A DNA stretch of 64,000 bases from Hamiltosporidium tvaerminnensis (taxonomy: Eukaryota > Microsporidia > Dubosqiidae). Below the pieces are notes generated by a model. The model was not told the origin of the DNA. It did not search any database and saw only the letters and a list, made by a program, of their open reading frames with translations. Below, in pieces: positions 14,061 to 49,904 of the stretch. Location of the stretch: the NCBI GenBank assembly GCA_022605425.2, contig JAKIMF020000004.1:186001-250000 (forward strand), written 5' to 3'. The stretch's first letter is position 1. Every line of letters begins with the position of its first letter. Position numbers and translations under genes: made by a program.

Positions 14061-14271
14061 GATTAAAAGCTGCAATTAAAAAACTTTATTAGAGTATCTT
14101 CGACAGCGAAAGGTAAAATAGGATTGAATAAGTTTGTAATAAATATTCATTTAAAATAACGACTATATTGTTAGATTTGTCGCTGAATAATAAAAAAAGA
14201 CTAAAACATGTGATTTTTTAGATAAAAAAAATAAAATAATCTTTTTTTACTCATTTAAAAAACCCAAATTT

Positions 14272-14940: not shown

Positions 14941-15104
14941 CTTTTTAATATAAAATTTATTTCGAATTTTATTTAAAAAAACAAATTCAAATTAAAAACA
15001 TGCTTATATTAATATTTCCTTAAATAGTCAAATAATTATTTACTCTTATCAAAATTTAAAACTGTTTCAATAAAAATTTATATTTGTTCTGAATTTTACA
15101 CTTG

Positions 15105-16709
15105 ATGATTTTATTGTTCTTTTTACAAATTCTAATTGAAATTTATGAAATCCAAGCTCGAAATTTCAGTTCTAATATTGATATAAAATCCTCAATACAC
15201 GATCAAGATTTAGATGTTCATAAACCCATTATTAAAGAGATAAGAGTAGAACCATTAATTAACGATTATAAAGTAGATTATGACGATAATATTCAGAGCC
15301 TTGATAAAATAATAAATGAAAAACTTGTTACCACTTTGCCAGAAAATAGCAAAGAAGTATGTAACTTAAACACAGAAAACAAAGAAAATTCCACAGAGGA
15401 GAGTATCTTAAATACAGAGAATTGTACTGATGATTTTGGTGATTCAATTGAGAAATGCTACATTGTAAAAACAAAAAGTTCTGATATAACTAAGAATCAA
15501 GAGCTAATAAGCTTTTTAAAATCAAATAATATAAAACCTACGAAAACTTATAGTAAATTGTTCGGCGGATTTACTTTTTGTACAAAAAATCCAAATATTT
15601 CAAAGAAAATCAAATATTTAAGTATTGTATCAGAAATAGAACCGGATTTAGAATATAAGATAAATTCAGTTCAATCAACAATACCATTTTATATGTTTCT
15701 TATGAATAATCTAGATAATACCATATTTAAGAATTATATTATTAACAATCGATTATTTGACTTACTTGGTATAAATACAATATTCAATTATTTATTTGGA
15801 TCTTACACATATAATTTTACAGGAAAAAATATAGAAATCTATGTTTTAGACACAACAGTGGATATAAATGATAGTGAAATTAAAGGAAGAGTTTCTAATT
15901 TATTTAAAAATGATTTATGTAATACACATGGAACAAATGTCGCAAAGGTAATTGGCGGTAAGAATATGGGATTTGCTAAAGATTCTAATTTAAAAATTTT
16001 AAACGTTGTAAATTGTTCAGGTATTGTAAAATTATCTGAAATTATTTCGGGTTTAGAAAAAATCCCAAAAAATTTAAAGAAACCAACGGTTTTATATTTA
16101 AGTATAAATGGACCAAAATCAAATCTTTTCAATCGAATAATATCTAAAATCACAGAAAACAATGTGATTGTTGTTTCTGCTGCTGGAAATAATCATGATA
16201 TAGCATGTAATTATTCACCCGGTAGTAGTGAAAATGTTATAAATGTTGGTTCTATTAATCAAGATGGAGACATATCCAAGTTTAGTAATTTCGGGGGTTG
16301 TATTAGAATATTCGCACTGGGTGAAGAAATTGATTCCAATTCTAATTTAGGAAATAAATTAATGGGTACTTCATTTTCAGCTGCAATAGTAACCGGAGCA
16401 GTAGCAATATATTTAGAAAAGTTTCCAAATGCCACACAAACTGAAATATGGAATTATTTGAATTCCAATTCTATATGGAACAAAAACGGCTATCTAGCAT
16501 TAAAAATACCCCAACTAGATAAAGAAACTGATTCTATAGAGTCTACAAAAAATATTATACCTAATCAATCCACTTACAGCTTTAAAACAATGTGTTTGAA
16601 ATATTATTTTATAGGAATAACTATTCCTATAATATGTATCACATTTTTAATTTTAATTATTTTATATTTCATTAGAAGACACAGAACAAGAAAGGAAATA
16701 ATTATTTAA
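15105..16709 (+). CDS. Subtilisin-like serine protease with C-terminal membrane anchor, copy 1
   Basis: I start at the ATG 15105 because the preceding in-frame codon is TTG. The 534-residue protein has a signal peptide (residues 1-18), a linker, an I9-like propeptide near 117-182, and an S8 catalytic domain. The triad is visible: Asp249 in YVLDTTVD, His275 in THGTNVA and Ser423 in GTSFSAA, with the oxyanion Asn362 in SAAGNN. The usual DTG after the Asp is DTT here. A hydrophobic segment near 497-522 followed by RRHRTRKE predicts a type I membrane protein. Microsporidian subtilisins are known in spores (SPL/SLP proteins) and act in sporulation or polar-tube germination. A GTTTCA at 15064-15069 and an AT-rich TATA-like stretch at 15076-15085 precede the ATG. 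The copy at 46569-48179 is nearly identical. Confidence 0.93.
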   Translation: MILLFFLQILIEIYEIQARNFSSNIDIKSSIHDQDLDVHKPIIKEIRVEPLINDYKVDYDDNIQSLDKIINEKLVTTLPENSKEVCNLNTENKENSTEESILNTENCTDDFGDSIEKCYIVKTKSSDITKNQELISFLKSNNIKPTKTYSKLFGGFTFCTKNPNISKKIKYLSIVSEIEPDLEYKINSVQSTIPFYMFLMNNLDNTIFKNYIINNRLFDLLGINTIFNYLFGSYTYNFTGKNIEIYVLDTTVDINDSEIKGRVSNLFKNDLCNTHGTNVAKVIGGKNMGFAKDSNLKILNVVNCSGIVKLSEIISGLEKIPKNLKKPTVLYLSINGPKSNLFNRIISKITENNVIVVSAAGNNHDIACNYSPGSSENVINVGSINQDGDISKFSNFGGCIRIFALGEEIDSNSNLGNKLMGTSFSAAIVTGAVAIYLEKFPNATQTEIWNYLNSNSIWNKNGYLALKIPQLDKETDSIESTKNIIPNQSTYSFKTMCLKYYFIGITIPIICITFLILIILYFIRRHRTRKEIII

Positions 16710-16784
16710 AAAGACTTAAAAATCGAAGAAAAATTATTTTTTAAAAAACATTTATTTTTATATGACAAATCTTTTGACAGATAT

Positions 16785-17066
16785 TTATTTTTCGTAACTA
16801 GTATTGTAAACCCAAGTTTGCGTATCTAAAGGACATATTGGCTTGGATTTAAGCCATCTAGAAATACAGTGAGAATGAAATGCATGATTACACATTCCCC
16901 ATGCAACCACACAGTCTTGATCAGCAGCAGTTTTACCATTTTGGCATTCTACACACGTATCCATAATATGATTTCTACATATTGCGCATGTTTCTACTTT
17001 CATGTCCAAAGACCAAAGAGCTACAGGCATCCATCTTTTTAGTTTTATTGTTATCTTTTTTTCCAT
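16785..17066 (-). CDS. RBX1: RING-box protein RBX1 (SCF ubiquitin ligase), copy 1
   Basis: The 93-residue protein is an almost full-length RBX1/ROC1/Hrt1: a short beta strand ([10 protein letters not shown]) that docks into cullin, then ALWSLDM, then an H2-type RING with Cys27, Cys30, Cys38, Cys41, Cys52, Cys59, His61, His64, Cys67, Cys78 and the diagnostic Asp81 as last ligand. [10 protein letters not shown] and [18 protein letters not shown] match the RBX1 signature and exclude APC11. It recruits the E2 enzyme to cullin complexes. A CCCC run (CCCC on the coding strand at 17078-17081) lies 11 bases before the ATG. It is convergent with the subtilisin gene, 75 bp apart. The second copy (46212-46493) encodes an identical protein. 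Confidence 0.95.
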
Positions 17067-17402
17067 GATTTTTTTATGGGGTTTTTGTTATTTAAATTTC
17101 TTTTTCGAGATCTAATTTTAGATATTTAAAAATATTTTAACCAATTATTCTCTAGTTCAAGCTTCCATCTTTAGAAAATATTTTTCCATTATTTTTCCTT
17201 CAATTTTACTGACAAAAATATTTTAAAAAGTTTAGAATTTAATTCATTCAAATTTTATTGCAAAGATACTTTTAAGATATATCAAAGAATTTGAATGAAT
17301 TTAAATTTATTTTAATACTTTTAAAAGTTATTTTCTATCTTTTTAATCATTTAACATCGAATTTCTATATTTCTATAAATAGAATATTTTACTTAGAAAT
17401 GC

Positions 17403-17927
17403 ATGAAAATAGCTTTAAACAAACAGAAGAATAAAAATACAGAAACTTTTGATTCTCTTCTTAAAATAACTGATGAAATAAAACAGAGAAACGTATCTTT
17501 CGTCAGTAAAATTAAGTCTGATTTAAATAAAATATACGAAGAGAAAAATGCAGAAACAATCAGTTTATTTCAAAGTAAAGAAGAAGATTTAAAAAAAATT
17601 ATAAAGAAAATGAAAAAAGATGTTGAATTAGTTTTAAAAGAAAGAAAAGATTCTTTAAAATTATTAAAAAGAAAAGTAATTGAAATAAATGAAAAATTAG
17701 CAGAAGAAGAGAATAAAGAAGAAATAATTAATAAAAAATTAGAAGAACTGAAAAATCAAATCGAAGAAAATTTTAAAAAGAATTTAAAATCAATGGATAA
17801 TAACAAAAATAAAAATTTCGAAGAAATTAAGAATCATAAAAAGCAAATCGATAAGAATATTGAAGAATTTGGCGAATCAAAAGATCAAATGAGTGTTATT
17901 AGTAAAATAATCGCTTCGATATTTTAA
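17403..17927 (+). CDS. Lys/Glu-rich coiled-coil protein, copy 1
   Basis: The 174-residue protein is nearly all predicted coiled coil with heptad-like Leu/Ile spacing between about residues 15 and 150, ending in a short hydrophobic tail (ISKIIASIF). No catalytic or binding motif is seen. A TATAAATAGAA box lies near 17374-17385, some 20-30 bases upstream. An out-of-frame ATG overlaps just before the start. The copy at 45349-45873 differs at four residues (Q to K, F to Y, D to E, F to L), all mild, so the frame appears to be maintained. It could be a structural, kinetochore or vesicle-tether component; I cannot choose. Confidence 0.8.
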   Translation: MKIALNKQKNKNTETFDSLLKITDEIKQRNVSFVSKIKSDLNKIYEEKNAETISLFQSKEEDLKKIIKKMKKDVELVLKERKDSLKLLKRKVIEINEKLAEEENKEEIINKKLEELKNQIEENFKKNLKSMDNNKNKNFEEIKNHKKQIDKNIEEFGESKDQMSVISKIIASIF

Positions 17928-18239
17928 TAAAAAGCTTTATGTCGTGTATTTAATATTTCGGTTATAATTTATATCATTGTTTAATCAATAGAAAAGAACT
18001 TAAATTAAAACACATTCTATGAATATCTTACAAAAAATTTCTTATAAAATTTTTGGATTAAATATTGTTGAATAAAAAATAAAATAATTGATTCTAAAAT
18101 AAATACTTTGGAAACAAATCAAAAAATAATTTAAGTTTTCCTAACTAATCATGCTTTTAGGTAAAATAAATATTTTTTTTTCTAATTTATTCATAAGTTT
18201 ATTTCATAGCTAATCCTTGATTCTTTTATTTACATTCAT

Positions 18240-26585: not shown

Positions 26586-26828
26586 TCATGGTAAACCAAT
26601 GCCAGTGCGAGAATATCCTCCCGCAGCATAAGGGCCTAAATGATCAAAAGGTGATACTAACGCTTTTGGCCCTAACCCATAAAAACCTCCATACAATTGA
26701 CTTCTACCATTTGGTATATCCTCAAAGTTTTCTTTTAAATTACTAGTTTTATCAGAGGATCCATATTTTAAGCAAAGTGCGGATGCAATAGAAAATATAA
26801 AACAAAGTGCTTTTTTCATTTTAAACAT
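26586..26828 (-). CDS. Small secreted protein, NGRSQ-FG family, member 1
   Basis: The 80-residue protein has an N-terminal signal peptide (MFKMKKALCFIFSIASALC, cleavage likely near residue 19-22) and a short mature part. The core LKENFEDIPNGRSQLYGG is followed by GLGPKAL, PFDHLG-PYAAGGYSRTG. Four paralogues lie at 34578-38869, all on the same strand. It is not a family I recognise. Mature peptides rich in Gly, Pro and Tyr suggest a secreted structural or host-directed factor; this is inference. The upstream promoter block (26851-26880) is shared with the paralogues, which argues that this is a genuine expressed gene despite its size. Confidence 0.8.
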   Translation of the reverse strand: MFKMKKALCFIFSIASALCLKYGSSDKTSNLKENFEDIPNGRSQLYGGFYGLGPKALVSPFDHLGPYAAGGYSRTGIGLP

Positions 26829-26850
26829 AATTTATTCCGATTTTTTTGAA

Positions 26851-26880
26851 ATTTATATTTAATTTTGAAACCTATTTATC
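26851..26880 (-). promoter_or_regulatory. Shared promoter block of NGRSQ-FG family, member 1
   Basis: Coding-strand order is GATAAA, GTTTCA, then AATATAAAT, ending 22 bases before the ATG. The same three elements with the same spacing stand before all five family members. The last looks like a TATA box; the other two are unassigned. Confidence 0.65.
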
Positions 26881-27974
26881 TCTAGATTCTACTTTGGTTG
26901 AAAAAAAGTCTTTTTATTCTTAAATTTAAGTTCTGGTGTATTCTTTTTCCATATATAAAACATTAAAAATTTCATTTTCAGGATTTAATCGCAGATATGA
27001 ATGTTGAAACAATTATTTCAATTTTTTAATTTAAAGTATTAAATTTTTCTATTCGTTCAATTCAAAACAACAAGAACATGTTTCCTTTCTAAAGAATAAA
27101 GAAATATATAATCTTTGAACATTTTTTTACAGACTCAAATTCCGAATACATCGAACTCATGATAATATTCATCATAGCACAAAGTATTCTATCTAATGGA
27201 TCATAAAAGAAAGATAACGATTTGAGAACCAATTATAAAACACACAAAAAATTGACTTCTATTATCTATAAAATATGTAATTTGCAACTTTATTCTTAGA
27301 TATTTTTATATTAAATTACACTATTTTTTTCAAATAATAATTTTAATAGAAATATACAACACTAGTAGATCTTACTTATCCATGCATTTTCTTAATTGTA
27401 ACCATATTAAATTTATTAAAAAAAAAATACTATCATTAGTTAGCAACAGCTAAAATCGCTATTATAACTTTATTTTCCATTTTCAATGCAATAAATAAAT
27501 GAATGAATTTATAAAAAATAAATTACTTGTAAAAAATAAAATCAAAAATGTAGAAACAAATTATGATGAGCTGAATACAAGTAAAAAGTCAGTGCAAAAA
27601 TAAAAAAAAAACTTATCGGATGATCCAAATATTATCTTTCATGACACAAAAAAAAAACACATTCACCACCAAGTCAAACAGAAATCTAAACCAAGTTGCG
27701 AATTAAATATAATACCTTCGAACAAAACACTACCTCGATCTTAAGTAGTAGAATCTGTTTACGAGTCCTCGAAAAACTATCAAACCTTAATATTGTAGCT
27801 TCTCTTCAAAAGCGGATATCGAAGTGTGAATCATAATCAATTTTTTTTAGCTTACAGGTGGAATGACTTGGCTTCTTTTTTAATATAAATATGGCTAAGA
27901 GAATACACATAAAAAACGCATCAGAGTTTTTTTGTACTTCGATCAGAGAATTTACATGCAATCATATACTTATT
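26881..27974. other. AT-rich intergenic DNA
   Basis: Poly-A/T rich; no gene or known repeat recognised. Confidence 0.5.
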
Positions 27975-28175
27975 ATCTTATTCCCGTTCTCTCTTACCTC
28001 TCGGTGTCGAGGGGGAACAAATGAAAAAATTATAGTTGCCTATTTTAATCTGTTAATACTCGAGATTATAGGCGGTTAGCCTATAGATTAAGTATGCTTA
28101 TATGCCACCAAAATGTCAACAATCGATTTCAAACAATTCTACAGATTCATTGCAAGCAGATGGTTTCTAATATAG
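27975..28175 (+). repeat. Interspersed repeat B, short copy B2
   Basis: It begins with TTATTCCCGTTCTCTCTTAC and CTCTCGGTGTCGAGG like copies B3-B5 and ends with ACAGATTCATTGCAAGCAGATGG, the shared 3' end. The interior of the longest copy (B4) is missing. Confidence 0.6.
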
Positions 28176-29379
28176 TTAGTCCTCATTCAACGGCAATTAT
28201 AGTAGCAATACATTAAAACGAATCACGGTGCAAAATAAGGTCGATAAACGAACGAGAAAGAGAACAAAGGAAAACGATTTAGAATCGCCTAAGGACACAT
28301 CGAGGTATATTATTTGGCCAAAGAATTGGGGCATGTCTTGATATATAAGTATTTATGTATTAATTAAAAAATCTCGATTAGGAAACGTGGAGAATTTTAT
28401 TTTAAACTAAAACATAAACAATTTGTTTGATTGTGAAATTTTAGAGCCAATTAATCAAAAATCAGGAGGTTTTTTAGAAGTAAATTTTCTTTGTATATTA
28501 TAAAGAGAGAATATTATACAGGCTGCATTTAGTTTATGGCGAAGCAAACAAAAGAAAGTATAAAATAAAATTATAAGCAATAAATTTCAAAGAGTTTTCT
28601 GGAATTTTGTAGACAAAAGAGGCTAAATACTTCTAAAATGATGAGCTTTGGGAAAATCATGTGTGCTTTTAAATTCAACTAACAACCTAAGGATTTAATC
28701 TAAATTATTTTTAGTAAATATAGTAAAAAATTTCTTTCGCAAAGATGATTTAATGTATTTTTTTGAACTCAATTTGGAAAAAAGCTGTATATTTTAGCTC
28801 TTGCGAGATAGTATTTATCTGGGGTTGGTTATGGTTTTATATGGCTGGTTAATACGTTAATTTTTAATTTCAAGCCTATAGATTTTATGTAAAAAATATT
28901 AAAGAATAATATGAATAATTGCGTAACATGAGTATACAATGCCATTAAGACCAAATGCTTCATAAAGTATGGTTTTTTTCGATTGAAAGTATGTAAATAT
29001 ATTTAATTGTCATCTTGGTTGGTAACTTACCAGAATCGTTACTTCAGTATTTTCTTCATAATGGCTTACTACCATGCTGCAATATCTTTATATAATGTCA
29101 ACCCATTCCGTACCCATATTTTTTAAAAATCCATAAAAAGCTTTGAAATTATTTCATATGCCAGTTCTATTAAAAAAATCATTTAGCCACTCTAATTCAT
29201 TTCTTAATCCATTTCTTGATCGTTTAATATTTTTCGTATTTCTTTTTTTATATTTTAGGAAATAGAAATAACTAAAAAAAGAAAAAAAATGTTATTAAGA
29301 AGTTAAAACAAAAATAAACATAGAAAAACATAAATTTTGAAGATATAAACCATTAATCTTAAAAATTAAAGTTTAATCA
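28176..29379. other. Gene-less region
   Basis: AT-rich with no ORF; possibly old transposon debris, not identifiable by eye. Confidence 0.4.
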
Positions 29380-30850
29380 TTCATATTTTTGTCAGGATGA
29401 GGTAATTCATTATAATAATACTTCTTAATACAATTTTTGCAAACAATATGTTGTGTGCCCCTTACATTCTATTAAAAAGGCAGCATTGTCATCGTAAGCA
29501 ACAACTTTTAAAAGTTTTTCCTCATAGGAGCTAACCATTTTGCTTTTTTTTCGTCCTTAGATTGTTCTCGAAATCTCTCTTTAGTGTCAAACATCACCAG
29601 GATTCGATTTTAAACGAAAAAGGTGTACATCCGTATCATTTTTCATACGAGGTAAAAATTTGTCTCGATATTTAAGTTAAACTGTTGGAAGCTATCAATT
29701 TTATTGGATACTTTATTCTCAAAGGCTACTTGATCCTCATCAGATGGCATTTCCATGTTCTGAAATGTATTTTCAAGAAATTCATTAAATCCGAGCTTGA
29801 GGAATATTCTTTATAAATAGCATCTTCTTCATATTTAACTGCAATTTTGTCTTTACGACCTCTAAATACTTCCATTGGAGTTATCCTTATTGCACTGCTC
29901 TTGGGTTTGATTTAACCATGTACGATTTTCTTATATAAATCGATTCATCTTTTTTGGCTTGATATTCTTAAATTTATAGCAAGCTTGCGTATGGTTGTAT
30001 GGTTGCATCCCATAACTTTCGCTTGATTTTTTGGGTACTTTGCCCGTTCCATAATAAACGATATTTTTTGCTCAACACGTATTCTTTTTATTCGTTCGTT
30101 TAAAAACTCTTTTAATTATCTGTTTGTAAAATTCTAGGCGCGCCTTCAAGAAAAATAGGATTTACAGGCTCGTTTACAACACAGGCTGCTGACTTATTTT
30201 GCAATCGTACTCAAAATAAAACTTATAATATTCATTTAAATGTGTAAAATCGACCCATGACCTCATTATCTATGCAGTATTTCCGCATATCAACAAGATC
30301 TATCTGAATTCTTTCCCATAGATAATTTCCAGTTTTTGTCTGAATTGCATCGTTTCGCTCAAAAACTTATAATAATGGCAATCTTGGCAGGTTTTAAAGA
30401 ATAGTTCTGTTTTCTATCGCTAAATCCGCAGTAGCTTCTTGCAGTTTCCTCGTAATTGCTTTTATATCAATATAATCAAGTGGATGTATAGAAGCAAACA
30501 GTTGGCTTGCGTTTCTGCACAGTCATTTGCTTTAACTTCTTTAATAATATTTTTAAGACACGTCGTACATGACTTGGCGTTTTCAATGTATATATCACCT
30601 ACTCGTTTTAAATATCATCTTTTCTGATAGCGAATCATATTGGATGGTAACTTTCTTGAAATTTTAAAGTTTTTTAAGTCTTATAATTCCAAATTAGTCA
30701 CAATTCAGCTAATTTTGATAAAAATTTTTACTTGTTGAAAATAAATACATTTTTTCGCATCTAAACATGGATATAAACAAAAAAATCGGCTCCTCATTAT
30801 CAGAAAGTATACTTTAAACAATTCATTTACTTAAAAGCATTTTTTATCGT
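29380..30850 (-). mobile_element. Decayed integrase-type element, copy 2 (LTR-retrotransposon-like)
   Basis: Minus-strand translation, across stops and frameshifts, gives an HTH-like segment (LNERIKRIRVEQKISFIMER, near 30050-30110), then a segment with ITPMEVFRGRK (near 29865-29900) resembling the C-terminal end of retroviral-type integrases (TP-E--GRK), and a CKNCIKKY motif near 29420. Copy 1 is at 23318-25010. Assignment to Ty3-like or another integrase element is tentative. Confidence 0.5.
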
Positions 30851-30879
30851 TTTAATATATGAGTGGGAGATAAGCATTG

Positions 30880-33730
30880 TGTCTAACATAAAGTTATAAA
30901 ATTTATGTAGACAGAAAACTTGCCCGAGCTGGTTTATTTCCCTGCGGAGTTATATGTTTTTACTCAGAAAAGATCGGGATAGGTCAAATACCTGTGTTTT
31001 GACCCCAACCCTAATTTGACCACAGAAAGTAGAATAAGTTTCGTTCAAAATGAAGTGGAAGGCAAGTTTTTCTGGCCTAAAATCAATTAGAAGCAGATAA
31101 AAGCATAAAAATAGCAAAATAGTGTTATACTATATTTTAAGTAAATTACATTATAAGAAAAAAAGAAATGAAATTACTTTTTATCTTAAGAACATTAAGG
31201 CTAATAACAAGTAACTTTGTTTAAAAGAAGCACATCTTTTTAAACAGTGGCAAGTGTTATATTTGTTTTCATGACATTAACGCAGTTCTAGGTTTAACAT
31301 AAATGACTGCTACCCCAACACTCCATCGGTAACCCCTGCGATACCTACGTCCCAAAGCCTTTCATCTACCAGGTGTGTAGAACCTAATTAATAGGCGAGG
31401 CAGTTGCCCGGAGTTCGTTAATGTCCGTTGCATGGAGTGTGATCGAAGCCCTCCCCCTGGGCTCCCCCAAGACTATGCAGCATTCCAATTTACTCTACAC
31501 TTTTTAGCCCCAATAAACTTCTAGCTAAGATATATTTCAGAGATTTACATGGGGTCCACCTAGACAGTGCAATGTCATATCAACAGGTATAACCTGCTAC
31601 TTAGCTTTCCTGGCTTTAAATGGTTTTTTGTTTTGTATCTCCCAGGCGCTAAGTCTTCTAACCCGAGTGAGCAAGGCTAGGTTTCCAGGTTTTTACATGG
31701 CAATTACCTACATATTTTGCTGTGGTCTGCAATCTGGTTACGTACAAAACTAAAACTAAATTTGTAGAAAAATTTTCGCCATTTCTTAGACCTCTTCTCC
31801 GCATAACAACTCCCATGGAACGACCGAAGATGTAGGGTGGTTTTGTCCCACCAAAAATCCAAACAATGATCTCACAACAGTTTCACACACTCATTGCCAA
31901 GCAGAAAGTTTTTTATGTGTGTTATCTTCTTTCTACATAACGTTATGAATTATATAATTATTGAAATTTAAAAAAAAATTTGAGAGGCAAGCCAGGCTAA
32001 AAAATCTTTTAACTCACAGATAATATACTATCATAATCCAAAATTTCTTTATCTTAAGACCGGAAACCCTTAAATAATACTCAAAAGCATTCTAAGGAAA
32101 GATAGTTTATTGCCTTTTTTATACATGTTATATATCCATCTGGCGAGCCGAACCTAGAATTGAAATATAAAGGTTGGCAGCATTTTCTAATACGAGTTTC
32201 CCCATAACCAATAACCATTTTAATTATTTATCTTAAGTTTTCTGCGGTGAGTAGGGATAATCTAGCCGATATAAAGAATTAAGTAAAATCTTCTTGTTCA
32301 GGGTAAACTTAGAATTAAAAAACCAGCTACTTACAATACGTGTTATGAAGCCTGCTATTTTTATAGAAGAAGGCAACTATTTAAACATTTGGAAATATTA
32401 GAAGATAGAAAAAAAAACATGAGGTACATTCACGGAAGTTAAAATTAATTTACTTTAACTTAGAGAACTTTTTTTGCCAAATCAATTCCTGCAATTTTTA
32501 GACATCCGATATCGTTTTTTAATCATCGGATAGGAATAATCGGGCTTTAGGCGCAAATCTCTTCGAGTTAGAAGCCAAGATATATGTCGTTAAGTGAAAA
32601 ATAAGACAATACAGACTAGGTTATAAGAAAGCGCCTATCTGCACTTTTGTCAGAAATTCTAAGAAATTTTCATTGTGGCGAGCAGCAAGTGAACACATGA
32701 TTTTGCAATTCTTTGATTGCTTGAGAATAAATATCTATCATATAAAAAACAAAATTGGCGATCTAAATCATAATGAAACATGCCCGCAACTATAAAATCT
32801 TAGGTTCCGCAAAATATACATTAGAAAGGTTTAAGAAGAGAGAAATTTTTCAAAATAAATAAATTAGACAATTTAAATATCGAAATAGAAATCAGAAAAT
32901 TACATTTAAAGCTATATAATGCCAAAAAAAGGATTTGGTAGCTGATGGTGATGCTTATAATTGGCATGTTAAAGGTTACATCAGGCCTCATTACGAGCGA
33001 GTTGGCTATTACATATAAGATAAAAATATATTTCGAGCTACAGGGTGAAATGTCAATGCTGTAAAAGCTCTTGAAAATCGGATGAGCATTTGACGATTAG
33101 GTGTTAAAAAATTCCAGATCTGTGTAAAAAAAGACTTCAAAACGATGTCTTAGTTAAACACATACATTTTTTTAACCACATAACTTCACGTAAGCAAAAA
33201 AAATAAAGTAATTCTGCATGTGAAATCTTATAAGACTGGTACGGAATAAGAGGCAACACTAACATAAAAATCGATGTCAAATATCCTGATATCGGATCAG
33301 TAATTTGTATTTTGAATAGGAAACTGAATATGAATATACTAATTGAAAACGGAATAAACCTAATTTGATTCTTTGTAGACCGCACCAACGAGATAGCTAA
33401 GGTAGTACGAATTATTTTCAATGCAATGAATTTTATTTATAAGTTAAATATAGATATAATTACATATGTTCGGACCGGGGATGGTTTAGGGGGGGATAAA
33501 CCAAATGCAATCTCAAAATCTAAATATGAGCATTAAAACTGGCCTGAAATTTGAGAGATCTTACTCAAAAACAGTTTTAAATCTTTATTTGATCGACGGA
33601 AGATTAAATTATAAAAATATCGATCGGGCTGCGAAAAAGCGTCATATGACGTCATATAAGAAGCTGAGAGAGAAGAGCAATTCATGCCACTACTATATAT
33701 GTGTACCAATGAGTTAGAAGGTCTCGATTG
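30880..33730 (+). mobile_element. Decayed non-LTR retrotransposon, interrupted by repeat A3
   Basis: Colinear matches to the 49905-53640 element: 30920-31110 with 51300-51500 (reverse transcriptase; GAAGTGGAAGGC), 32325-32400 with 52005-52085 (ACGTGTTATGAAG, ATATTAGAAGATAG), 32480-32545 with 52190-52240, 32870-33060 with 52585-52765 (KLHLKLYNAKK, YYI-DKNIFRATG), 33245-33340 with 52975-53060 (endonuclease), and 33590-33700 with 53315-53420. Removing the 705-bp repeat A3 restores the expected spacing, so A3 inserted into this copy. All frames are broken; the small frames at 33137-33421 and 33505-33717 are incidental. Confidence 0.78.
31231..31935 (+). repeat. Interspersed repeat A, copy A3 (nested)
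   Basis: Nearly identical to A1 from CACATCTTTTT to the TTATGTG-GTTATC end. It splits the decayed retrotransposon 30880-33730, giving relative ages: the retrotransposon first, then repeat A. Confidence 0.85.
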
Positions 33731-34577
33731 AACAAACGGTAAAGTTAATGTAATATAGATGGATAAAATAAAAGGAATAAATTCATATACTTAAAATCTA
33801 GAAAATGATTCACTTTAAAGAATTGATATAATAAAAAAGGAGTAAAAACTTGGGTAAACTAAATGAAAACAATCGGGAAATAAATCGGATCTAAAATTCT
33901 TTGCTTTTTGTAAAAACAACAGTCACATATGGATTAAAAATAAAATATAATTTTTTTTGAAATATCAAGCAAATTTATTTTGAAAGATTGTCAAAGAGTT
34001 ACAACCATCTTGCTGAATTACTCAATTAATTTAAAAATTTTTAATATTTAATTTTTCTAACTTTAGTAAATAAACAGAGTTAAATCAAAATTTATATTAA
34101 ATATCCATTAGTAATGTACCTTAATATGATTCGAAACAACAATATTAAATTATTAAAAGATTTTTTACGTTTTCTGGATTTTTACACATACAAAATACTT
34201 TTTATCAGTTTGAAAAATCACAATATAATTTGCTCCTTAAATATATTCTTATTCTATTATATTTCAAATAGTAAATACCTTTATTATTCTTTTAAAGTTT
34301 TCATATTTTGGTTAAAAAATTTGTTTATGGTTTTGTAATTTAAATTTATCTATATATTTTAGGGTTTCGTAGTCTATTTTTTTAATTTTTAAGGTTCGAT
34401 CGTTTTTGGTCAAATATAGCTTTTTCCAATTTGAATAAGTGTTTTAATCAAAAAAAGTCATGTATGAAGCAACAAAATTCAATTGAACAAAGACAAAAAG
34501 GTTTTTTAAAAATACGATGAAAATTTAATAATATATTCCAAACATGTAAAATCAAACATGAGCTTTATTGCTATAAA
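33731..34577. other. AT-rich intergenic DNA
   Basis: A 74-codon frame at 34114-34338 (plus) is Phe/Ile/Tyr-rich as expected of random AT-rich DNA and is not called. Nothing else recognised. Confidence 0.45.
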
Positions 34578-34828
34578 TCATGAAAAACCCAAACCCGTAT
34601 GAGGATATCCCCCCATGCCATATGGATCAATTGTTGAAGTTTCGTAAGGCGAGACTACCTTTCTTGAGCCTAAACCAACATACTTCCAAACAATTGACTC
34701 CTACCGTTTGGAATATATTCTGGGTTCTCTTTTAAACTATTCGCATTTCTCGAAGCCCTATAATATTTGTTGCAGAATGTAAATGCAATATAAAATATAA
34801 AATACCATGATATTTTCACTCTAAAAAT
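34578..34828 (-). pseudogene. Small secreted protein NGRSQ-FG family, member 2, disrupted
   Basis: The family pattern is evident: a hydrophobic leader (SWYFIFYIAFTF), then LKENPEYIPNGRSQLFGSM. A one-base frameshift right after this, near 34675, ends the frame at a TAG; in the next frame the family C-terminus continues (GLGSRK, SPYETS, DPYGMGGYPHTG) to a stop at 34578-34580. The codon aligned with the paralogues' initiator ATG is ATT (34826-34828). An upstream in-frame ATG at 34877-34879 exists, but it lies beyond the promoter block, so it is unlikely to be used. Two independent defects make this a pseudogene, apparently a recent one. Confidence 0.8.
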
Positions 34829-34849
34829 AATATATTTTGTTAATTTTAA

Positions 34850-34880
34850 ATTTATATTTAATTTTGAAACTAATTTCATC
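34850..34880 (-). promoter_or_regulatory. Shared promoter block of NGRSQ-FG family, member 2 (degraded)
   Basis: GTTTCA and AATATAAAT are intact, but the outermost GATAA element reads GATGAA. This agrees with decay of the gene behind it. Confidence 0.5.
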
Positions 34881-35117
34881 TTTTGATTTCATTCTAGTCG
34901 AAAAAAGGAATATTGGAATAAATATGTTCTCATATATTCTTTATTTTATATAAAATATACTTAATATTTTTCTAGACCGAATGAAACTTATGAATGATGA
35001 AACAGTTATCTAGAAACATGTTTTTAATTTATTTAATTTTTAATAATAAAACTTGACTAAGCTAAGATTTTTTAAAATTTAAGAAATTTGTTACTTAGAC
35101 TTTATTTTTTGTTGAGA

Positions 35118-35366
35118 TTAGGGAAAAGCTGAACCTGGAAGATAATATCCACCATGAGCATAAGGACCCGTGCTTAATGGATCATAAGGCGATGTAAAAG
35201 GTTTCGAGCCCACTTCTAGCATACCTCCAAATAATCTACTTCTACTTACAGGAATATCTTCAGGTGCCGCCTTTAATTTGTTTATAATATTGAGTCTATG
35301 TCCTTTTTTGCAAAATGATAAAATGATGTAAAATATAAAATACAAAAAATTTATTTTCATACACAT
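35118..35366 (-). CDS. Small secreted protein, NGRSQ-FG family, member 3
   Basis: The 82-residue protein has a signal peptide (KINFLYFIFYIILSFC) and the family core in variant form: EDIPVSRSRLFGGMLEVGSKPF, then SPYDPLSTGPYAHGGYYLPG. The NGR tripeptide of the other members is VSR here, so the Arg-Ser-x-(L/M/Y/F) part is the better-conserved bit. Met1 (35364-35366) or Met3 could start; Met3 places the ATG at the same distance from the TATA-like element as in the paralogues. Frame and domain pattern are intact. Confidence 0.78.
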   Translation of the reverse strand: MCMKINFLYFIFYIILSFCKKGHRLNIINKLKAAPEDIPVSRSRLFGGMLEVGSKPFTSPYDPLSTGPYAHGGYYLPGSAFP

Positions 35367-35380
35367 ATTTGCTCATTCCT

Positions 35381-35415
35381 ATTTATATTTAAATCTTTTT
35401 GAAACAAATCTTATC
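35381..35415 (-). promoter_or_regulatory. Shared promoter block of NGRSQ-FG family, member 3
   Basis: GATAAG, GTTTCA and AATATAAAT in order and at family spacing, 15-21 bases from the candidate starts. Confidence 0.65.
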
Positions 35416-36164
35416 GTTGTCAAATAACCGATAAAAATGAACTATCTTAAGTTTGATTTTCAGGTTTTCTATTTAAAACATCGATTATTCTATCTCGTGT
35501 ATTCCATAAAAATTTTATAATAAAATTAGCTTATTGTCATTAATACTTTATCTTTCTATTTGTATCAATCTGAACAAAAAACCTCGATATTTATGAAATA
35601 TATTATTGTATGTGTAATTCTAATTTGTTTTCATTGAAAGAAGTTGTTAAAAACAAAAACCAAAGTTAAATTTTTGTTAGAAAAAGAAGATCTAGCATAT
35701 AAGATGTCAATAAAATGTTTATATACTATAAGCCCGGTTTTCTTTATCATCTTGAAAACACCGTTTTTAATTTATTCAATATCTCAAATTTATTTTAGTT
35801 CTATTTCTCTATTTAGAACACCATATGTTTCACAATATAAATACATCTGCCAATGAAGATATTACACCCTTCTCTTTTTTAAACTTATTTGCTTCCATTT
35901 TTTTATCGTTTCTCATCTATTTTATAACTCATTCTACTTCGGATTTGAGTTTTATCTTCGTTTAAAAAATGAATATTTTGAAAAGAACATTATTTAAAAT
36001 TTACAATTTTGCACATAAAACAATCTAAACTCAAGCTTATGAAATATATAATAGCATTATTAATGAAATAAATTGATTGTATGTACAATCTTTATTTATA
36101 ATAAATAAATCGAGACTTTAAAAAAATGTGAAAATATTAATCAAACTAGACTTTATTATTGAAA
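35416..36164. other. AT-rich spacer between family members 3 and 4
   Basis: No gene recognised; the open frame around 35644-35856 lacks an ATG start. Confidence 0.5.
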
Positions 36165-36413
36165 TTATGGTAAAAAAGTACCTGGTCCGTTTCTAGAATA
36201 TGGATATCCACTGCCAGTACCCAAAGAGCCATAGGGCCGCCCCAATGGTGTTGGACCTAATCCATTCAAATCCCCAAACATTTGACTCCTACCGTTTGGA
36301 CTATCCTCTGAATTCGCTCTCAAGTTACTTCTTTGATACGCACCAGCATTTTTATTACAGCATATATATGTAATGTAAAATAAAAAACACAATAAACATT
36401 CCATTCTAAACAT
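36165..36413 (-). CDS. Small secreted protein, NGRSQ-FG family, member 4
   Basis: The 82-residue protein starts MFRMECLLCFLFYITYICC, a signal peptide, followed by LRANSEDSPNGRSQMFGDLN, GLGPTPLGRPYGSLGTG and a Gly/Tyr/Pro-rich C-terminus. It keeps a true ATG (36411-36413), an intact frame and the shared promoter. With member 1 it is the best candidate for a functional gene of the family. Function unknown. A basic residue in the middle of the conserved core (NGR|SQ) would suit processing by a trypsin- or kexin-like protease; that is speculation. Confidence 0.8.
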   Translation of the reverse strand: MFRMECLLCFLFYITYICCNKNAGAYQRSNLRANSEDSPNGRSQMFGDLNGLGPTPLGRPYGSLGTGSGYPYSRNGPGTFLP

Positions 36414-36433
36414 ATTTTCTTGGATTTTTCATG

Positions 36434-36464
36434 TATTTATATTTTATTTTGAAACATATTTTAT
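36434..36464 (-). promoter_or_regulatory. Shared promoter block of NGRSQ-FG family, member 4
   Basis: GATAAAA (36459-36464), GTTTCA (36451-36456) and AATATAAATA (36434-36444), the clearest example of the block. Confidence 0.68.
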
Positions 36465-38617
36465 CTTTTGATTTTCTTCTGGTCAAATCGTCAGGATGAA
36501 ATTAAATTATGTTTTTCCTGATAGGCTCTTTTTCATGTACTAAACAAAAAACATTCTATCTTTTAATTTAATCAGAGTTGGGAATGCCAAAAAAAAATTA
36601 AAAATTATTTGTCCTTAGATATTTTGATACCAAATATGGAAATCCCATATAACTTTTTTTTAGACTAATAGGATGTATAGAGTTAACACAACATTAATGT
36701 AAATAACAGAAAAATTCATCATAGATGGCTTTATTATATTGATATCTATCAGATATTTAAAGTTGTTAAAGGTGTATCATAAAATGATGGCAATTTTTGA
36801 AACTGTTACTAATATCACCATACATTTGAATTCGATTATTTGAAATATATTACGGCTTACGATATTACTGCTTTCTCTTCGAATTCGATAACTCTTAAGA
36901 CAAATATAGGAGCAACATGAAGAATACGGCCTTTTATTCAAAACATAAATTTCTTAGGTTTCCTTACATTTAAATTCATTTTTAAATGCAAATTTTGCAG
37001 ACAAAATATAATTTGCCACAATCAATTAGGGGAAGTTAAAAACAAAAATACAAATCCGTGATGATGGTGTACACATATTTGTTTCTCGTAAGAAAGACAT
37101 TTGCTGACATGAGATTGAATTTAAAACGTATAAAAAAATAAATTTTCTTGCAGTTTTGCCATATCAATGTTGATTGAAACAATATCTTTGTAACCGAATT
37201 AACTTATAATATTTAACTACCGCAAAATTATACTAAAATTCGAAATTTCTTATTTCTTAGCTTTTTTTGTTGTTAAAGCATACTACTTTATATTTATATT
37301 TTTAGTATTTGTTACATTGTTTTTGGTTGCTAATTTTGTTTAAATAAGTTTTTTGTGATTATTAATATTGAATTTTAGTTCTTTTCTTGTTAATAATCAA
37401 AATGGACAAAAAAACCATAAAAATTATATCTATTTCGGTTTAATTGCTTTATATATGAAAATATGCAATCTGAAAGAATATGTTTCTTATATAGAATTTA
37501 GTAAAGTTTAGATATAAATTTGTTTTTTGAAATAACAAACTTGGTTTGGCCATTAAAAGAGGTTTTTAACCATTCCATCGACTATGAAATGATTCTTAAC
37601 CTCTTGTATATATTATTGCGAATTCATTATGAAATTATCAAAAAAAGTATAGGTTCTCTATGAAAGAGTAGGTTAGTTCTAAACATATTTTTATACATAG
37701 TTTAGTAAAACTGGTTTTTTACGATCATGACCGAGTAAGGAAAAAAACTATATGATTTTCCAACATAAAAATGAAAAAAAACGTTATATTACAGAGAAAA
37801 CATTGACTAAATATATTTTGAATTCTATAAAAAGCCTGGGAATGATCTTTGTATGCGCAAGCGAAATAGCATAGAAATTTTAAGACTTTAAAGTAGCGAA
37901 ATATTATATTAGGTTCTAGTCGTTTCAACTTTTTTTTTTACCTAAACTAAATAACTATAGTATTTTTTATTCCAGTATTTTGGTTATTTAACAAATCTAT
38001 ATATGATATCATAAATTTGACTTAGTGAAATTGATTTTTCCACTTTTTTCGTTTGTTTTTAATAAATACCGAACAAACATTCTTTTAATATTGTTCAAAC
38101 TTAGTCTAATGGGCTATTTTAACCCATTCGAAAATACAAGCTATTTACAAGACACGATAGTGGTTTAACCGTCATCGTAAATAATTTCAGTTTAGCCATC
38201 ATATCCAAGTAATATAAGAAAATGGTTTTATTTGCATCTTAGTTAGCATTTTATAAGTTCGGTTGGTAAAATATTTAATTAAAAATTATTTTTTTGATCG
38301 GTAATATCTTATATTCGATATTATTATTTTACAGATTGCACGTTTTTATATTTTTTCTTATTTTAAATATCCATGCTGTTTAGAGATTATTCATCTAATA
38401 TTTTTATATTTTGAATCTTTTTGTTGTGATATGCTTCATTAATTTTATATCGAAAATTATATTTGATAAGAAGTTAATTTAATTTGTATAAAACGAAAAA
38501 GAATAAGTTTTGAATACCAATAGTTCAATTAGTATATAATATATAATAAAATGGTTAGGTATATAGTAAAAAAATGATCTATTTTTTTAATTTTGAACAT
38601 ATCTTTATTTACTTAAC
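36465..38617. other. Gene-less AT-rich region
   Basis: About 2.1 kb between family members 4 and 5. A 67-codon frame at 37725-37928 (minus) has no upstream block or family similarity and is not called. No repeat recognised. Confidence 0.45.
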
Positions 38618-38869
38618 TTATGAAAAACCTGCGCTTGCGCCAGACCACCTCGATCCGAAGGAATTATAATATCCACCTAGGGGATCGTATGGTCGTGCTA
38701 AAGGTTTAGGGCCTAATCCAAACATACTAGTAAACATTTGGCTTCGATTATTTAGAATATCTTCCGAATTTGACATTAAATAATCTTTTTTGCTTATAAT
38801 ACTTTCACCAATGCCCAAAACGAATGTTATATAAACTATGAAACACAATATATTTTTTATTCTGAACAC
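38618..38869 (-). pseudogene. Small secreted protein NGRSQ-FG family, member 5, initiator ATG lost
   Basis: The frame is intact over 83 codons with signal-like FRIKNILCFIVYITFVLG, then LMSNSEDILNNRSQMFTSMF, GLGPKPLARPYDPLGG. The codon at the position of the family's start (38867-38869) is GTG, not ATG, and an in-frame TAA lies five codons upstream with no ATG between. The ATG overlapping by two bases (38869-38871) is in another frame. The next in-frame Met (about residue 28) would remove the signal peptide. Either this copy is newly dead, it uses a non-ATG start, or there is a sequence error. The promoter block is well kept. Confidence 0.65.
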
Positions 38870-45289: not shown

Positions 45290-45348
45290 AAATAAACAAT
45301 GATATAAATTAAAACCGAAATATTAAATACACGACATAAAGCTTTTTA

Positions 45349-45873
45349 TTAAAATATCGAAGCGATTATTTTACTAATAACACTCATTTGATCTTTTGAT
45401 TCGCCAAATTCTTCAATATTCTTATCGATTTGCTTTTTATGATTCTTAATTTCTTCGAGATTTTTATTTTTATTATTATCCATTGATTTTAAATTCTTTT
45501 TAAAATTTTCTTCGATTTGATTTTTCAGTTCTTCTAATTTTTTATTAATTATTTCTTCTTTATTCTCTTCTTCTGCTAATTTTTCATTTATTTCAATTAC
45601 TTTTCTTTTTAATAATTTTAAAGAATCTTTTCTTTCTTTTAAAACTAATTCAACATCTTTTTTCATTTTCTTTATAATTTTTTTTAATTCTTCTTCTTTA
45701 CTTTGATATAAACTGATTGTTTCTGCATTTTTCTCTTCGTATATTTTATTTAAATCAGACTTAATTTTACTGACAAAAGATACGTTTCTCTTTTTTATTT
45801 CATCAGTTATTTTAAGAAGAGAATCAAAAGTTTCTGTATTTTTATTCTTCTGTTTGTTTAAAGCTATTTTCAT
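45349..45873 (-). CDS. Lys/Glu-rich coiled-coil protein, copy 2
   Basis: Paralogue of the gene at 17403-17927, 174 residues, four substitutions (EIKKR for EIKQR, ISLYQ for ISLFQ, EEELK for EEDLK, NKNLEE for NKNFEE). Nearly all predicted coiled coil with no recognised domain. The copy retains its TATA-like box upstream (around 45891-45905). Nothing suggests that either copy is dead. Confidence 0.8.
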   Translation of the reverse strand: MKIALNKQKNKNTETFDSLLKITDEIKKRNVSFVSKIKSDLNKIYEEKNAETISLYQSKEEELKKIIKKMKKDVELVLKERKDSLKLLKRKVIEINEKLAEEENKEEIINKKLEELKNQIEENFKKNLKSMDNNKNKNLEEIKNHKKQIDKNIEEFGESKDQMSVISKIIASIF

Positions 45874-46211
45874 GCATTTCTAAGTAAAATATTCTATTTA
45901 TAGAAATATAGAAATTCGATGTTAAAAATTGTTAAAAAGATAGAAAATAACTTTTAAAAGTATTAAAATAAATTTAAATTCATTCAAATTTTTTGATATA
46001 TCTTAAAAGTATCTTTGCAATAAAATTTTCATAAAAAAAATTCTAAACTTTGCAAAATATTTTTGTCAGTAAAATTGAAGGAAAAATAATGGAAAAATAT
46101 TTTACTGAAGATTGAAGCTTGAACTAAAGAATAATTGGTTAAAATATTTTAAATATTTAAAATTAGATCTGGAAAAAGAAATTTAAATAACAAAAACCCC
46201 ATAAAAAAATC

Positions 46212-46493
46212 ATGGAAAAAAAGATAACAATAAAACTAAAAAGATGGATGCCTGTAGCACTTTGGTCTTTGGACATGAAAGTAGAAACATGCGCAATATG
46301 TAGAAATCATATTATGGATACGTGTGTAGAATGCCAAAATGGTAAAACTGCTGCTGATCAAGACTGTGTGGTTGCATGGGGAATGTGTAATCATGCATTT
46401 CATTCTCACTGTATTTCTAGATGGCTTAAATCCAAGCCAATATGTCCTTTAGATACGCAAACTTGGGTTTACAATACTAGTTACGAAAAATAA
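46212..46493 (+). CDS. RBX1: RING-box protein RBX1 (SCF ubiquitin ligase), copy 2
   Basis: The 93-residue protein is identical to that at 16785-17066, with all RING ligands and Asp81, and has the same CCCC run (46197-46200) upstream. It is the most conserved gene of the duplicated block, which fits strong purifying selection on RBX1 or recent gene conversion. Two RBX1 genes are unusual for a fungus; some animals have RBX1 and a diverged RBX2, but here both are RBX1. Confidence 0.95.
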
Positions 46494-46568
46494 ATATCTG
46501 TCAAAAGATTTGTCATATAAAAATAAATGTTTTTTAAAAAATGGTTTTTCTTCGATTTTTAAGTCTTT

Positions 46569-48179
46569 TTAAATAATTATTTCCTTTCTTGTTCTGTGTC
46601 TTCTAATGAAATATAAAATAATTAAAATTAAAATTAAAAATGTGATACATATTATAGGAATAGTTATTCCTATAAAATAATATTTCAAACACATTGTTTT
46701 AAAGCTGTAAGTGGATTGATTAGGTATAATATTTTTTGTAGACTCTATAGAATCAGTTTCTTTATCTAGTTGGGGTATTTTTAATGCTAGATAGCCGTTT
46801 TTGTTCCATATAGAATTGGAATTCAAATAATTCCATATTTCAGTTTGTGTGGCATTTGGAAACTTTTCTAAATATATTGCTACTGCTCCGGTTACTATTG
46901 CAGCTGAAAATGAAGTACCCATTAATTTATTTCCTAAATTAGAATTGGAATCAATTTCTTCACCCAGTGCGAATATTCTAATACAACCACCGAAATTACT
47001 AAACTTGGATATGTCTCCATCTTGATTAATAGAACCAACATTTATAACATTTTCACTACTGCCGGGTGAATAATTACATGCTATATCATGATTATTTCCA
47101 GCAGCAGAAACAACAATCACATTGTTTTCTGTAATTTTAGATATTATTCGATTGAAAAGATTTGATTTTGGTCCATTTATACTTAAATATAAAACTGTTG
47201 GTTTCTTTAAATTTTTTGGGATTTTTTCTAAACCCGCAATAATTTCAGATAATTTTACAATACCTGAACAATTTACAACGTTTAAAATTTTTAAATTAGA
47301 ATCTTTAGCAAATCCCATATTCTTACCGCCAATTACCCTTACGACATTTGTTCCATGTGTATTACATAAATCATTTTTAAATAAATTAGAAACTCTTCCT
47401 TTAATTTCATTATCATTAATATCCACTGTTGTGTCTAAAACATAGATTTCTATATTTTTTCCTGTAAAATTATATGTGTAAGATCCAAATAAATAATTGA
47501 ATATTGTATTTATACCAAGTAAATCAAATAATCGATTGTTAATAATATAATTCTTAAATATGGTATTATCTAGATTATTCATAAGAAACATATAAAATGG
47601 TATTTTTGATTGAACTGAATTTATCTTATATTCTAAATCCGGTTCTATTTCTGATACAATACTTAAAGATTTGATTTTCTTTGAAAGATTTGGATTTTTT
47701 GTACAAAAAGTAAATCCGCCGAACAATTTACTATAAGTTTTCGTAGGTTTTATATTATTTGATTTTAAAAAGCTTATTAGCTCTTGATTCTTAGTTATAT
47801 CAGAACTTTTTGTTTTTACAATGTAGCATTTCTCAATTGAATCACCAAAATCATCAGTACAATTCTCTGTATTTAAGATACTCTCCTCTGTGGAATTTTC
47901 TTTGTTTTCTGTGTTTAAGTTACATACTTCTTTGCTATTTTCTGGCAAAGTGGTAACAAGTTTTTCATTTATTATTTTATCGAGGCTCTGAATATTATCG
48001 TCATAATCTATTTTATAATCGTTAATTAATGGTTCTACTCTTATCTCTTTAATAATGGGTTTATGAACATCTAAATCTTGATCGTGTATTGAGGATTTTA
48101 TATCAATATTAGAACTGAAATTTCGAGCTTGGATTTCATAAATTTCAATTAGAATTTGTAAAAAGAACAATAAAATCAT
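46569..48179 (-). CDS. Subtilisin-like serine protease with C-terminal membrane anchor, copy 2
   Basis: Paralogue of 15105-16709; start set at the ATG 48177-48179 because the upstream codon is not ATG. Same layout: signal peptide, I9-like propeptide, S8 domain with Asp, His and Ser triad and oxyanion Asn intact, transmembrane segment, basic tail. It differs at eight residues plus a Leu-Ile insertion in the membrane segment. Two of the changes sit directly after the catalytic His: HGTNVVRVIGG here, HGTNVAKVIGG in copy 1. Another is in the propeptide (IKSLS for IKYLS). The insertion looks like slippage in a TTTTAA-type repeat. Confidence 0.93.
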   Translation of the reverse strand: MILLFFLQILIEIYEIQARNFSSNIDIKSSIHDQDLDVHKPIIKEIRVEPLINDYKIDYDDNIQSLDKIINEKLVTTLPENSKEVCNLNTENKENSTEESILNTENCTDDFGDSIEKCYIVKTKSSDITKNQELISFLKSNNIKPTKTYSKLFGGFTFCTKNPNLSKKIKSLSIVSEIEPDLEYKINSVQSKIPFYMFLMNNLDNTIFKNYIINNRLFDLLGINTIFNYLFGSYTYNFTGKNIEIYVLDTTVDINDNEIKGRVSNLFKNDLCNTHGTNVVRVIGGKNMGFAKDSNLKILNVVNCSGIVKLSEIIAGLEKIPKNLKKPTVLYLSINGPKSNLFNRIISKITENNVIVVSAAGNNHDIACNYSPGSSENVINVGSINQDGDISKFSNFGGCIRIFALGEEIDSNSNLGNKLMGTSFSAAIVTGAVAIYLEKFPNATQTEIWNYLNSNSIWNKNGYLALKIPQLDKETDSIESTKNIIPNQSTYSFKTMCLKYYFIGITIPIICITFLILILIILYFIRRHRTRKEIII

Positions 48180-48343
48180 CAAGTGTAAAATTCAGAACAA
48201 ATATAAATTTTTATTGAAACAGTTTTAAATTTTGATAAGAGTAAATAATTATTTGACTATTTAAGGAAATATTAATATAAGCATGTTTTTAATTTGAATT
48301 TGTTTTTTTAAATAAAATTCGAAATAAATTTTATATTAAAAAG

Positions 48344-49012
48344 ATGCTCGGTGTTTACTTTCCTATCTCACTTTTTTTATTAAGTTATATTCTATATTCC
48401 AGTTATTCTAATCATTTTTTGGGACTTGAAAAGATCGAAAATTTAACTATAAATAAGATTGATGCTAAAATAAGTGAATGTAATATTAAAATAAAGTCTG
48501 AGAAATTACTATTGATAGCTGAAGAAAACTCAATGTGGCTATCTATTGAAAGAAACAAATTTATTACAATTGAAAACTCTGGCGAATACAACAAAATATT
48601 CATTTTTAAATTAATTATTTACATCGATAAACTTTTAAAAATTAATAAAAAAATCATTTTTTTGTTAGAATTTTTAAATAAGAAAAGTGAAACCATGAAC
48701 ATTAAAAACTTAATATCGTATTTAGAAAACAATCAGATTTATAATAATGAATATTTAAAAGAAACTAATCAAAATATAAAAAGTATTATAGTTTCTATAA
48801 AAAACTTAAACCTACAATTACTTAACGAATTTACAGAAATAAGTAAAAATGTCAATACACATGATAAAAAAGAATATGACAAGAAACATACTAAAAATTC
48901 TATTTATATAGCGAAGTTGATTAATAAGTTAAGCAGTATTCTTTCATATATAAACTGTTTAACAAATTATGAAAATAATATTGTAATGAACATATATTAT
49001 ATGAATGTATGA
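48344..49012 (+). CDS. Secreted protein of unknown function, copy 2
   Basis: Paralogue of 14272-14940: 222 residues, signal peptide MLGVYFPISLFLLSYILYSS, helical Lys/Ile/Asn-rich mature part. Four residues differ, including loss of one of the few cysteines (AKISECN for AKICECN). It is divergently arranged with the subtilisin copy over a 164-bp shared promoter, exactly as in the left arm. Confidence 0.8.
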   Translation: MLGVYFPISLFLLSYILYSSYSNHFLGLEKIENLTINKIDAKISECNIKIKSEKLLLIAEENSMWLSIERNKFITIENSGEYNKIFIFKLIIYIDKLLKINKKIIFLLEFLNKKSETMNIKNLISYLENNQIYNNEYLKETNQNIKSIIVSIKNLNLQLLNEFTEISKNVNTHDKKEYDKKHTKNSIYIAKLINKLSSILSYINCLTNYENNIVMNIYYMNV

Positions 49013-49111
49013 AAATTTGGGTTTTTTAAATGAGTAAAAAAAAGATTATTTTATTTTTTTTATCTAAAAAATCACATGTTTTAGTCTTTTTTTATTATTC
49101 AGCGACAAATC

Positions 49112-49904
49112 AAACAAGCCACTATTTTAAATCTAATATCTAATATAATAACCCAAAACATAAATAATAAGATTTATGTTGAACAATATTTTTCTTGTAT
49201 TGTTCAGGAATAAACTATTCTCAATTTATTTCTAATATGTATTTATTTCATAGAAATGCAATTTTAATATAATGCAGATATAATAAGATAAAAAGGTTTA
49301 ATTTTGCTTTTTATATTTTTTTATAAAACAAATCTTGCTATACTTAAATCAAATAAAACAATTTGTTTTTCGCGTCTCTTTTCCACAAAAATTTTTATTA
49401 AACCTATTTTTTAAAAAGTGATTTTTATTTTTAAGGTCGAATAAACCCAACATAATATGTTTATAAATTAGATGAAATCAACAATGTATGAAATCATTCT
49501 GCCGTATTTTCTGGAAGGCGGTTAAGTTTAAACTAGGTATCTAACAAGAAAATCATCTTCCTGCTAACTGTTTCTTTGTTATTATTAAAATAATCGTTTT
49601 TATAAAAAAAGAATTGTCTTTATTGGTTTTATTCACCTTGGCACCCCTATCTCTCATTACCACATAAAATAAAAATATTATAGCTTTGAGATATAAATAA
49701 TATCACACATTCTTTGACAGTTTATAATATTGTATTTTTATTTGAGCAAATATTTCAAATCATATAAAACTAATAATATATCTGAAACTAACAAAGTAAT
49801 TATGAATAAATTAAATGTTAATAACCAAGGATACAATTATTGGTATTTTGAAATATATAATGGGTAGAAGGAAAAAAGTAGACAGCGAAAATATAAGAAA
49901 TGAA
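49112..49904. other. AT-rich intergenic DNA
   Basis: Unique DNA between the duplicated arm and the retrotransposon. The small minus-strand frames at its right end run into retrotransposon sequence and are incidental. Confidence 0.5.

Follow-up and report, generated by a model that had tools for sequence, protein, structure and literature searches.

A locally duplicated family of small, probably secreted proteins whose named relatives are confined to the microsporidian genus Hamiltosporidium

We describe a family of six homologous small-protein loci, four of them intact, in the Daphnia magna parasite Hamiltosporidium tvaerminnensis, a microsporidian for which a near-chromosome assembly of 21.64 Mb in 17 contigs has been reported (PMC10542269). 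Five of the loci (c1 to c5) lie within positions 186,001 to 250,000 of contig JAKIMF020000004.1, a stretch of 64,000 nucleotides that we refer to as the window (C13:186001-250000), and the sixth (c6) lies just outside it. The mature part of the encoded proteins is under constraint, the only named relatives that we found belong to the same genus, two of the copies are damaged or altered at the start, and the copies share sequence signals on both sides of the coding frame. In our interpretation these loci form a family of small secreted proteins that is restricted to the genus and has been duplicated locally; its members may use a conserved core to act beyond the parasite cell, most likely facing the host. 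This interpretation is tentative, and we give it a probability of roughly 0.45.

Six loci on one contig

A first-pass annotation of the window had listed five minus-strand paralogues, and their homology, places and strand hold up. When the protein of c1 was searched against the whole genome (21,638,905 bases, 17 contigs), it matched c4 (E 2.6e-15), c5 (E 3.4e-11), c3 (E 4.7e-10), a fragment of c2 (E 2.3e-7) and c6 (E 4.1e-6), and the five sequences in the window are similar to a degree well beyond chance. However, only three of these five are intact. They are c1 (26586..26828, minus strand, 80 amino acids), c3 (35118..35366, minus strand, 82 amino acids) and c4 (36165..36413, minus strand, 82 amino acids), all with an ATG start. 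The database protein P0002 (77 amino acids) is 100% identical to c1 across 96% of the latter, and the sequence of c4 is that of database protein P0001.

The remaining two copies in the window are altered in different ways. The 251 bases of c2 (34578..34828, minus strand) form a decayed copy, or pseudogene, that is not a single frame. Its family start position carries no ATG, its N-terminal part meets a stop in the core, and its tail lies in another frame; each half is matched by the family profile in its own frame (34673-34888, E 1.9e-15, and 34581-34700, E 0.0027). The frame of c5 (38618..38869, minus strand) is open across 83 codons but has GTG at the family start position, and no in-frame ATG precedes the leader. 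This copy either uses a non-AUG start or is a pseudogene that has lost its start. The earlier count of five copies in 12 kb thus includes one broken and one start-altered copy. In addition, an intact copy of 93 amino acids, c6, is encoded on the plus strand approximately 60 bases outside the window (C13:185659-185937 plus the stop codon; L030:9659-9940).

Five whole-genome protein queries located only these six loci, which lie at 185.6-224.9 kb of contig C13. The individual queries returned 6, 4, 5, 6 and 5 matches, so not all six loci were recovered each time and the counts are lower bounds. Scanning the window, 30 kb of flank and two further loci described below (L028 and L029) with the family profile gave a best match of E 0.31 besides the six copies. 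A larger dispersed family can be ruled out, as the five genome queries point to the same six loci and the profile scan agrees. The family is real and consists of six loci, of which four (c1, c3, c4 and c6) are intact and begin with ATG.

Relatives outside this assembly are few. A profile search of 5.8 billion proteins gave six matches at E values up to 1, four of which carry a source name, in every case Hamiltosporidium (two from H. tvaerminnensis and two from H. magnivora); the remaining two belong to the window itself. Two single-query searches up to E 10 gave no further relatives, in a type of search that depends on shared five-residue words and that remote relatives could escape. No Pfam family was matched by any of the five proteins at E values up to 1, and a search of PDB sequences gave no match. 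Among the titles and beginnings of abstracts listed in literature searches, none names this family. As judged from deposited sequences, the family is clade-specific, its named relatives being confined to Hamiltosporidium, and the first-pass proposal of a lineage-specific, probably secreted microsporidian family is supported.

The four named relatives had been deposited singly as hypothetical proteins. CWI37_0073p0010 of H. tvaerminnensis is c6. In a second protein from this species, CWI38_0491p0030, the predicted N-terminus differs, and CWI39_0030p0030, which is the c6 relative in H. magnivora, is nine residues shorter inside the core; these differences stem either from gene models or from real insertions and deletions. 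The second H. magnivora protein, CWI39_2194p0010, is the one relative from that species that could be compared end to end with a family member, and it is identical to c3 at 79 of 80 residues. A rate of 0.012-0.017 amino acid changes per site, based on BUSCO genes, has been reported between the two species (PMC12558613), and the divergence of c3 appears to be about at this rate, although one gene is a small sample. One of the database relatives is labelled 'Secreted protein' by UniRef.

Protein features, constraint and flanking signals

The claim that each copy begins with a hydrophobic leader holds for the five proteins tested (c1, c3, c4, c5 and c6), the decayed c2 being outside this sample. 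Their N-termini are strongly hydrophobic, with a maximum 12-residue Kyte-Doolittle mean of 2.23-2.97. Later maxima in the same proteins are lower (0.17-1.26), and only one of 24 open reading frames (ORFs) of 60-110 amino acids in the window reaches at least 2.0. After position 45, glycine, tyrosine and proline together account for 0.37-0.51 of the residues, and the tail of c6 is a Gly/Tyr-rich run. The net charge of the mature part is +4 in c6 and 0 to +2 in the other four. The first-pass annotation had summarized the mature part by literal motifs said to be common to all copies; these are a blend across copies, since c5 is the only copy with exact GLGPKPL and PYDPLG, and PNGRSQ is present in c1, c2 and c4 (3/5).

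We fitted codon models to estimate the ratio of nonsynonymous to synonymous change (dN/dS, or omega), with c2 left out. Across c1, c3, c4, c5 and c6 omega is 0.204, and a value of 1 is rejected (twice the difference in log likelihood, 2dlnL, is 66). Similar values were obtained with the four ATG-started copies alone (omega 0.229, 2dlnL 44) and with c1, c3, c4 and c5, which lie in the window (omega 0.181, 2dlnL 57). The dN/dS check that the first-pass annotation had suggested therefore gives values far from 1. These are rough, because silent sites are near saturation (the proportion that differ, pS, is 0.63-0.80 across whole pairs). With omega near 0.20 and silent sites so close to saturation, unconstrained frames of such age would hardly have stayed open or alignable.

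The signal of constraint differs along the protein. In the leader (20 codons) omega is 0.943, and a value of 1 is not rejected (2dlnL 0.01), whereas the linker (13 codons; omega 0.176, 2dlnL 5.1) and the stretch from the core to the end (46 codons; omega 0.253, 2dlnL 40) have low values. Thus, the mature part is under constraint, and any constraint on the leader is below detection. The earlier description of diverging leaders and a held core is modest when measured by mean pairwise identity (leader 0.35, linker 0.17, core 0.46, tail 0.36) and clearer when measured by omega.

In contrast to homology and omega, ORF length by itself is not enough to separate these frames from random DNA. Three ATG-started ORFs of at least 80 amino acids occur between 26 and 40 kb, compared with a mean of 0.53 and a maximum of 4 in 200 shuffled sequences, so the observed lengths lie within the shuffled range. 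The case for genes rests on homology and constraint. Chance ORFs are ruled out by the homology E values together with omega, and length alone would be insufficient to exclude them. The guanine-plus-cytosine content of the five window copies is 33-38%, and that of the 300-bp flanks is 19-22%.

Signals shared by the copies were found on both sides of the frame. At the 3' end, AATAAA occurs 2-14 nucleotides past the first base of the stop codon in all six copies. The same hexamer is present within 20 nucleotides in two of nine other window genes and at 5% of minus-strand positions between 26 and 40 kb, in a comparison that counts AATAAA and not ATTAAA and leaves out three duplicate genes in the repeat arms described below. 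The six occurrences are not independent events, because the copies share ancestry. In H. tvaerminnensis, A[A/U]UAAA is reported approximately 20 nucleotides ahead of the commonest mRNA 3' ends (PMC10542269), and the hexamer of the family matches this published motif in sequence.

Upstream of the frame, the element GTTTCAAAATNAAATATAAAT is present in exact form on the minus strand ahead of c1 (26851..26871; C13:212851-212871), c2 (34850..34870; C13:220850-220870) and c4 (36435..36455; C13:222435-222455). These are the sole exact matches genome-wide, and a control with the reversed pattern gave one match. Degenerate forms of the element precede c3, c5 and c6. As a mark of further family members the element fails, since two sites with one mismatch (L028 and L029) are accompanied by neither a profile match nor a family ORF, sought as an ATG-started frame of at least 40 amino acids.

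Possible functions

In the interpretation that we favor, the copies would be expressed and an N-terminal signal peptide of approximately 20 residues would direct the protein into the secretory path and be removed in the endoplasmic reticulum. The mature product would then comprise some 60-70 residues, largely disordered and ending in the Gly/Tyr/Pro-rich part. Within it, a conserved stretch of approximately 26 residues (around E-D-x-P-N-G-R-S-Q-L-F-G...G-L-G-P) may serve as a short binding module. The mature protein would act beyond the parasite plasma membrane, most likely toward the host, and the family would turn over by the birth and death of neighbouring copies.

The suggested direction toward the host comes from the behaviour of a class of proteins. 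Microsporidia are known to have clade-specific proteins that are secreted or predicted to be host-exposed (Reinke et al. 2017, PMC5423893). In that study, clade-specific proteins with targeting signals are overrepresented among the experimentally host-exposed proteins of Nematocida, and proteins of this description are predicted to be host-exposed across microsporidia. We lean to a host-facing role because of this enrichment. Like the predicted host-exposed proteins, the present family combines a putative leader, restriction to one genus, the lack of a known domain and the presence of paralogous copies. It differs in that its host exposure is putative, and no sign of fast evolution was seen in the one relative compared. 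The large gene families of the same study have at least ten homologous members per species, whereas we count six loci, a lower bound, of which one is broken.

Several observations weigh against a secreted, host-facing family. The purifying selection and the ordinary divergence of c3 from its H. magnivora counterpart are unlike those of a fast arms-race effector; a strongly diversifying effector is disfavored because constraint falls on the mature part and because the c3 relative differs at one of 80 residues. The putative signal peptide is deduced from hydropathy. The near saturation of silent sites makes omega rough, the leader estimate comes from 20 codons only, and the lengths of the frames are not decisive. 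An AlphaFold model has a helix at residues 2-32, a mean predicted local distance difference test (pLDDT) score of 54 and scores below 50 at 42 of 80 residues, nearly all beyond the helix; a helical leader and a perhaps disordered remainder fit this model, but it was made from an alignment of five sequences, and so thin an alignment by itself depresses pLDDT. Finally, the database listing places only c6 (P0004) of the family on contig C13. The listing gives no source for proteins of the window, and the absence of c1, c3 and c4 is a weak hint that these copies may be without Iso-Seq support or transcript-based annotation.

A structural protein of the spore wall or of another extracellular coat is a possible, though less probable, alternative. 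Such a protein would be secreted during spore formation, its Gly/Tyr/Pro-rich end would pack or cross-link, and its core would dock. This explanation comes next after a host-facing role because of the composition of that end, including the Gly/Tyr-rich run of c6, and because the family shows no fast evolution, its mature part being constrained with no sign of diversification and the divergence of c3 from H. magnivora being ordinary. The spore wall and polar tube proteins of microsporidia (SWP, EnP and PTP) are secreted and often biased in composition. However, the proteins described here have just 80-93 amino acids, and no relative was found among Pfam models or PDB sequences, which were the scope of the comparison with these groups. 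A word search of the literature on Gly-rich spore-wall proteins gave no match, which says little.

It is improbable that the family is simply dying, with relics of a once useful gene in which the remaining open frames are chance survivors. Damage or an altered start affects two of the six copies, the ORF lengths are not extreme, and the possible lack of transcript-based annotation for c1, c3 and c4 would agree weakly with decay. Nevertheless, omega is low despite near-saturated silent sites, the AATAAA signal has been retained in every copy, and the c3 relative has been kept almost unchanged in H. magnivora, although the two species are very close. Still less probable is a precursor from which a short secreted peptide is cut, such as a signalling peptide or one of the Gly/Tyr-rich antimicrobial peptides that the family may resemble: the small size, the leader and the charge of the mature part of c6 would suit a precursor, but no dibasic site is conserved across all alignment rows (by eye), the other four proteins carry little charge and the constraint is spread from the core to the end.

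Contact with the host and construction of the coat are tasks that a microsporidian would be expected to assign to secreted proteins restricted to its genus. Daphnia and Hamiltosporidium form a studied system of coevolution. Because it is well delimited and includes both intact and damaged copies, the family is a tractable target for work on expression and localisation. It is a real yet not unusual kind of lineage-specific family, and as matters stand it alters no general idea.

Genomic setting

The stretch containing c1 to c5 lies between the arms of an inverted repeat (left arm, 14134..17983; right arm, 45293..49148), which are approximately 3.85 kb each, 98.2% identical over 3861 columns and separated by about 27 kb. 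The arms bracket these copies in position, and a functional link to the family would be hypothetical. We consider it very unlikely, though conceivable, that the undescribed secreted family, with a disordered core that would bind host or wall, is kept in a 27-kb island between near-identical inverted arms that carry two subtilase genes, and that the island could be inverted by recombination of its arms, which would sustain copy turnover.

Each arm contains a subtilase gene (534 and 536 amino acids), a gene for a 222-residue protein whose start looks leader-like by eye and one for a 174-residue Lys/Glu-rich protein (a coiled coil by eye), and all three genes are open in both arms. The Pfam Peptidase_S8 match was run on the left subtilase; relative to this gene, the right-arm copy has 15 base differences and 6 gap columns.

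An interspersed repeat of approximately 0.7 kb is present in both orientations at 19404-20122, 25212-25933, 31237-31919 and 62928-63610. Parts of the first three of these are up to 99% alike, whereas the fourth has diverged further; c1 and c2 are separated by one of the copies. A broken reverse-transcriptase element at 50125-52250 matches RVT_1 with an E value of 5.5e-5, below the Pfam cut-off. On the low-coordinate side of c6 are two frames judged by eye, a long open relative of this element (L030:3319-6978, 1219 amino acids) and one that resembles a retrotransposon polyprotein (L030:2-3265). An open gene at 20189-22723 encodes a protein kinase of 844 amino acids that has a C1 domain and, below the Pfam cut-off, a match to HR1, a protein-kinase-C-like domain set that is, to our knowledge, unusual for a reduced parasite genome.

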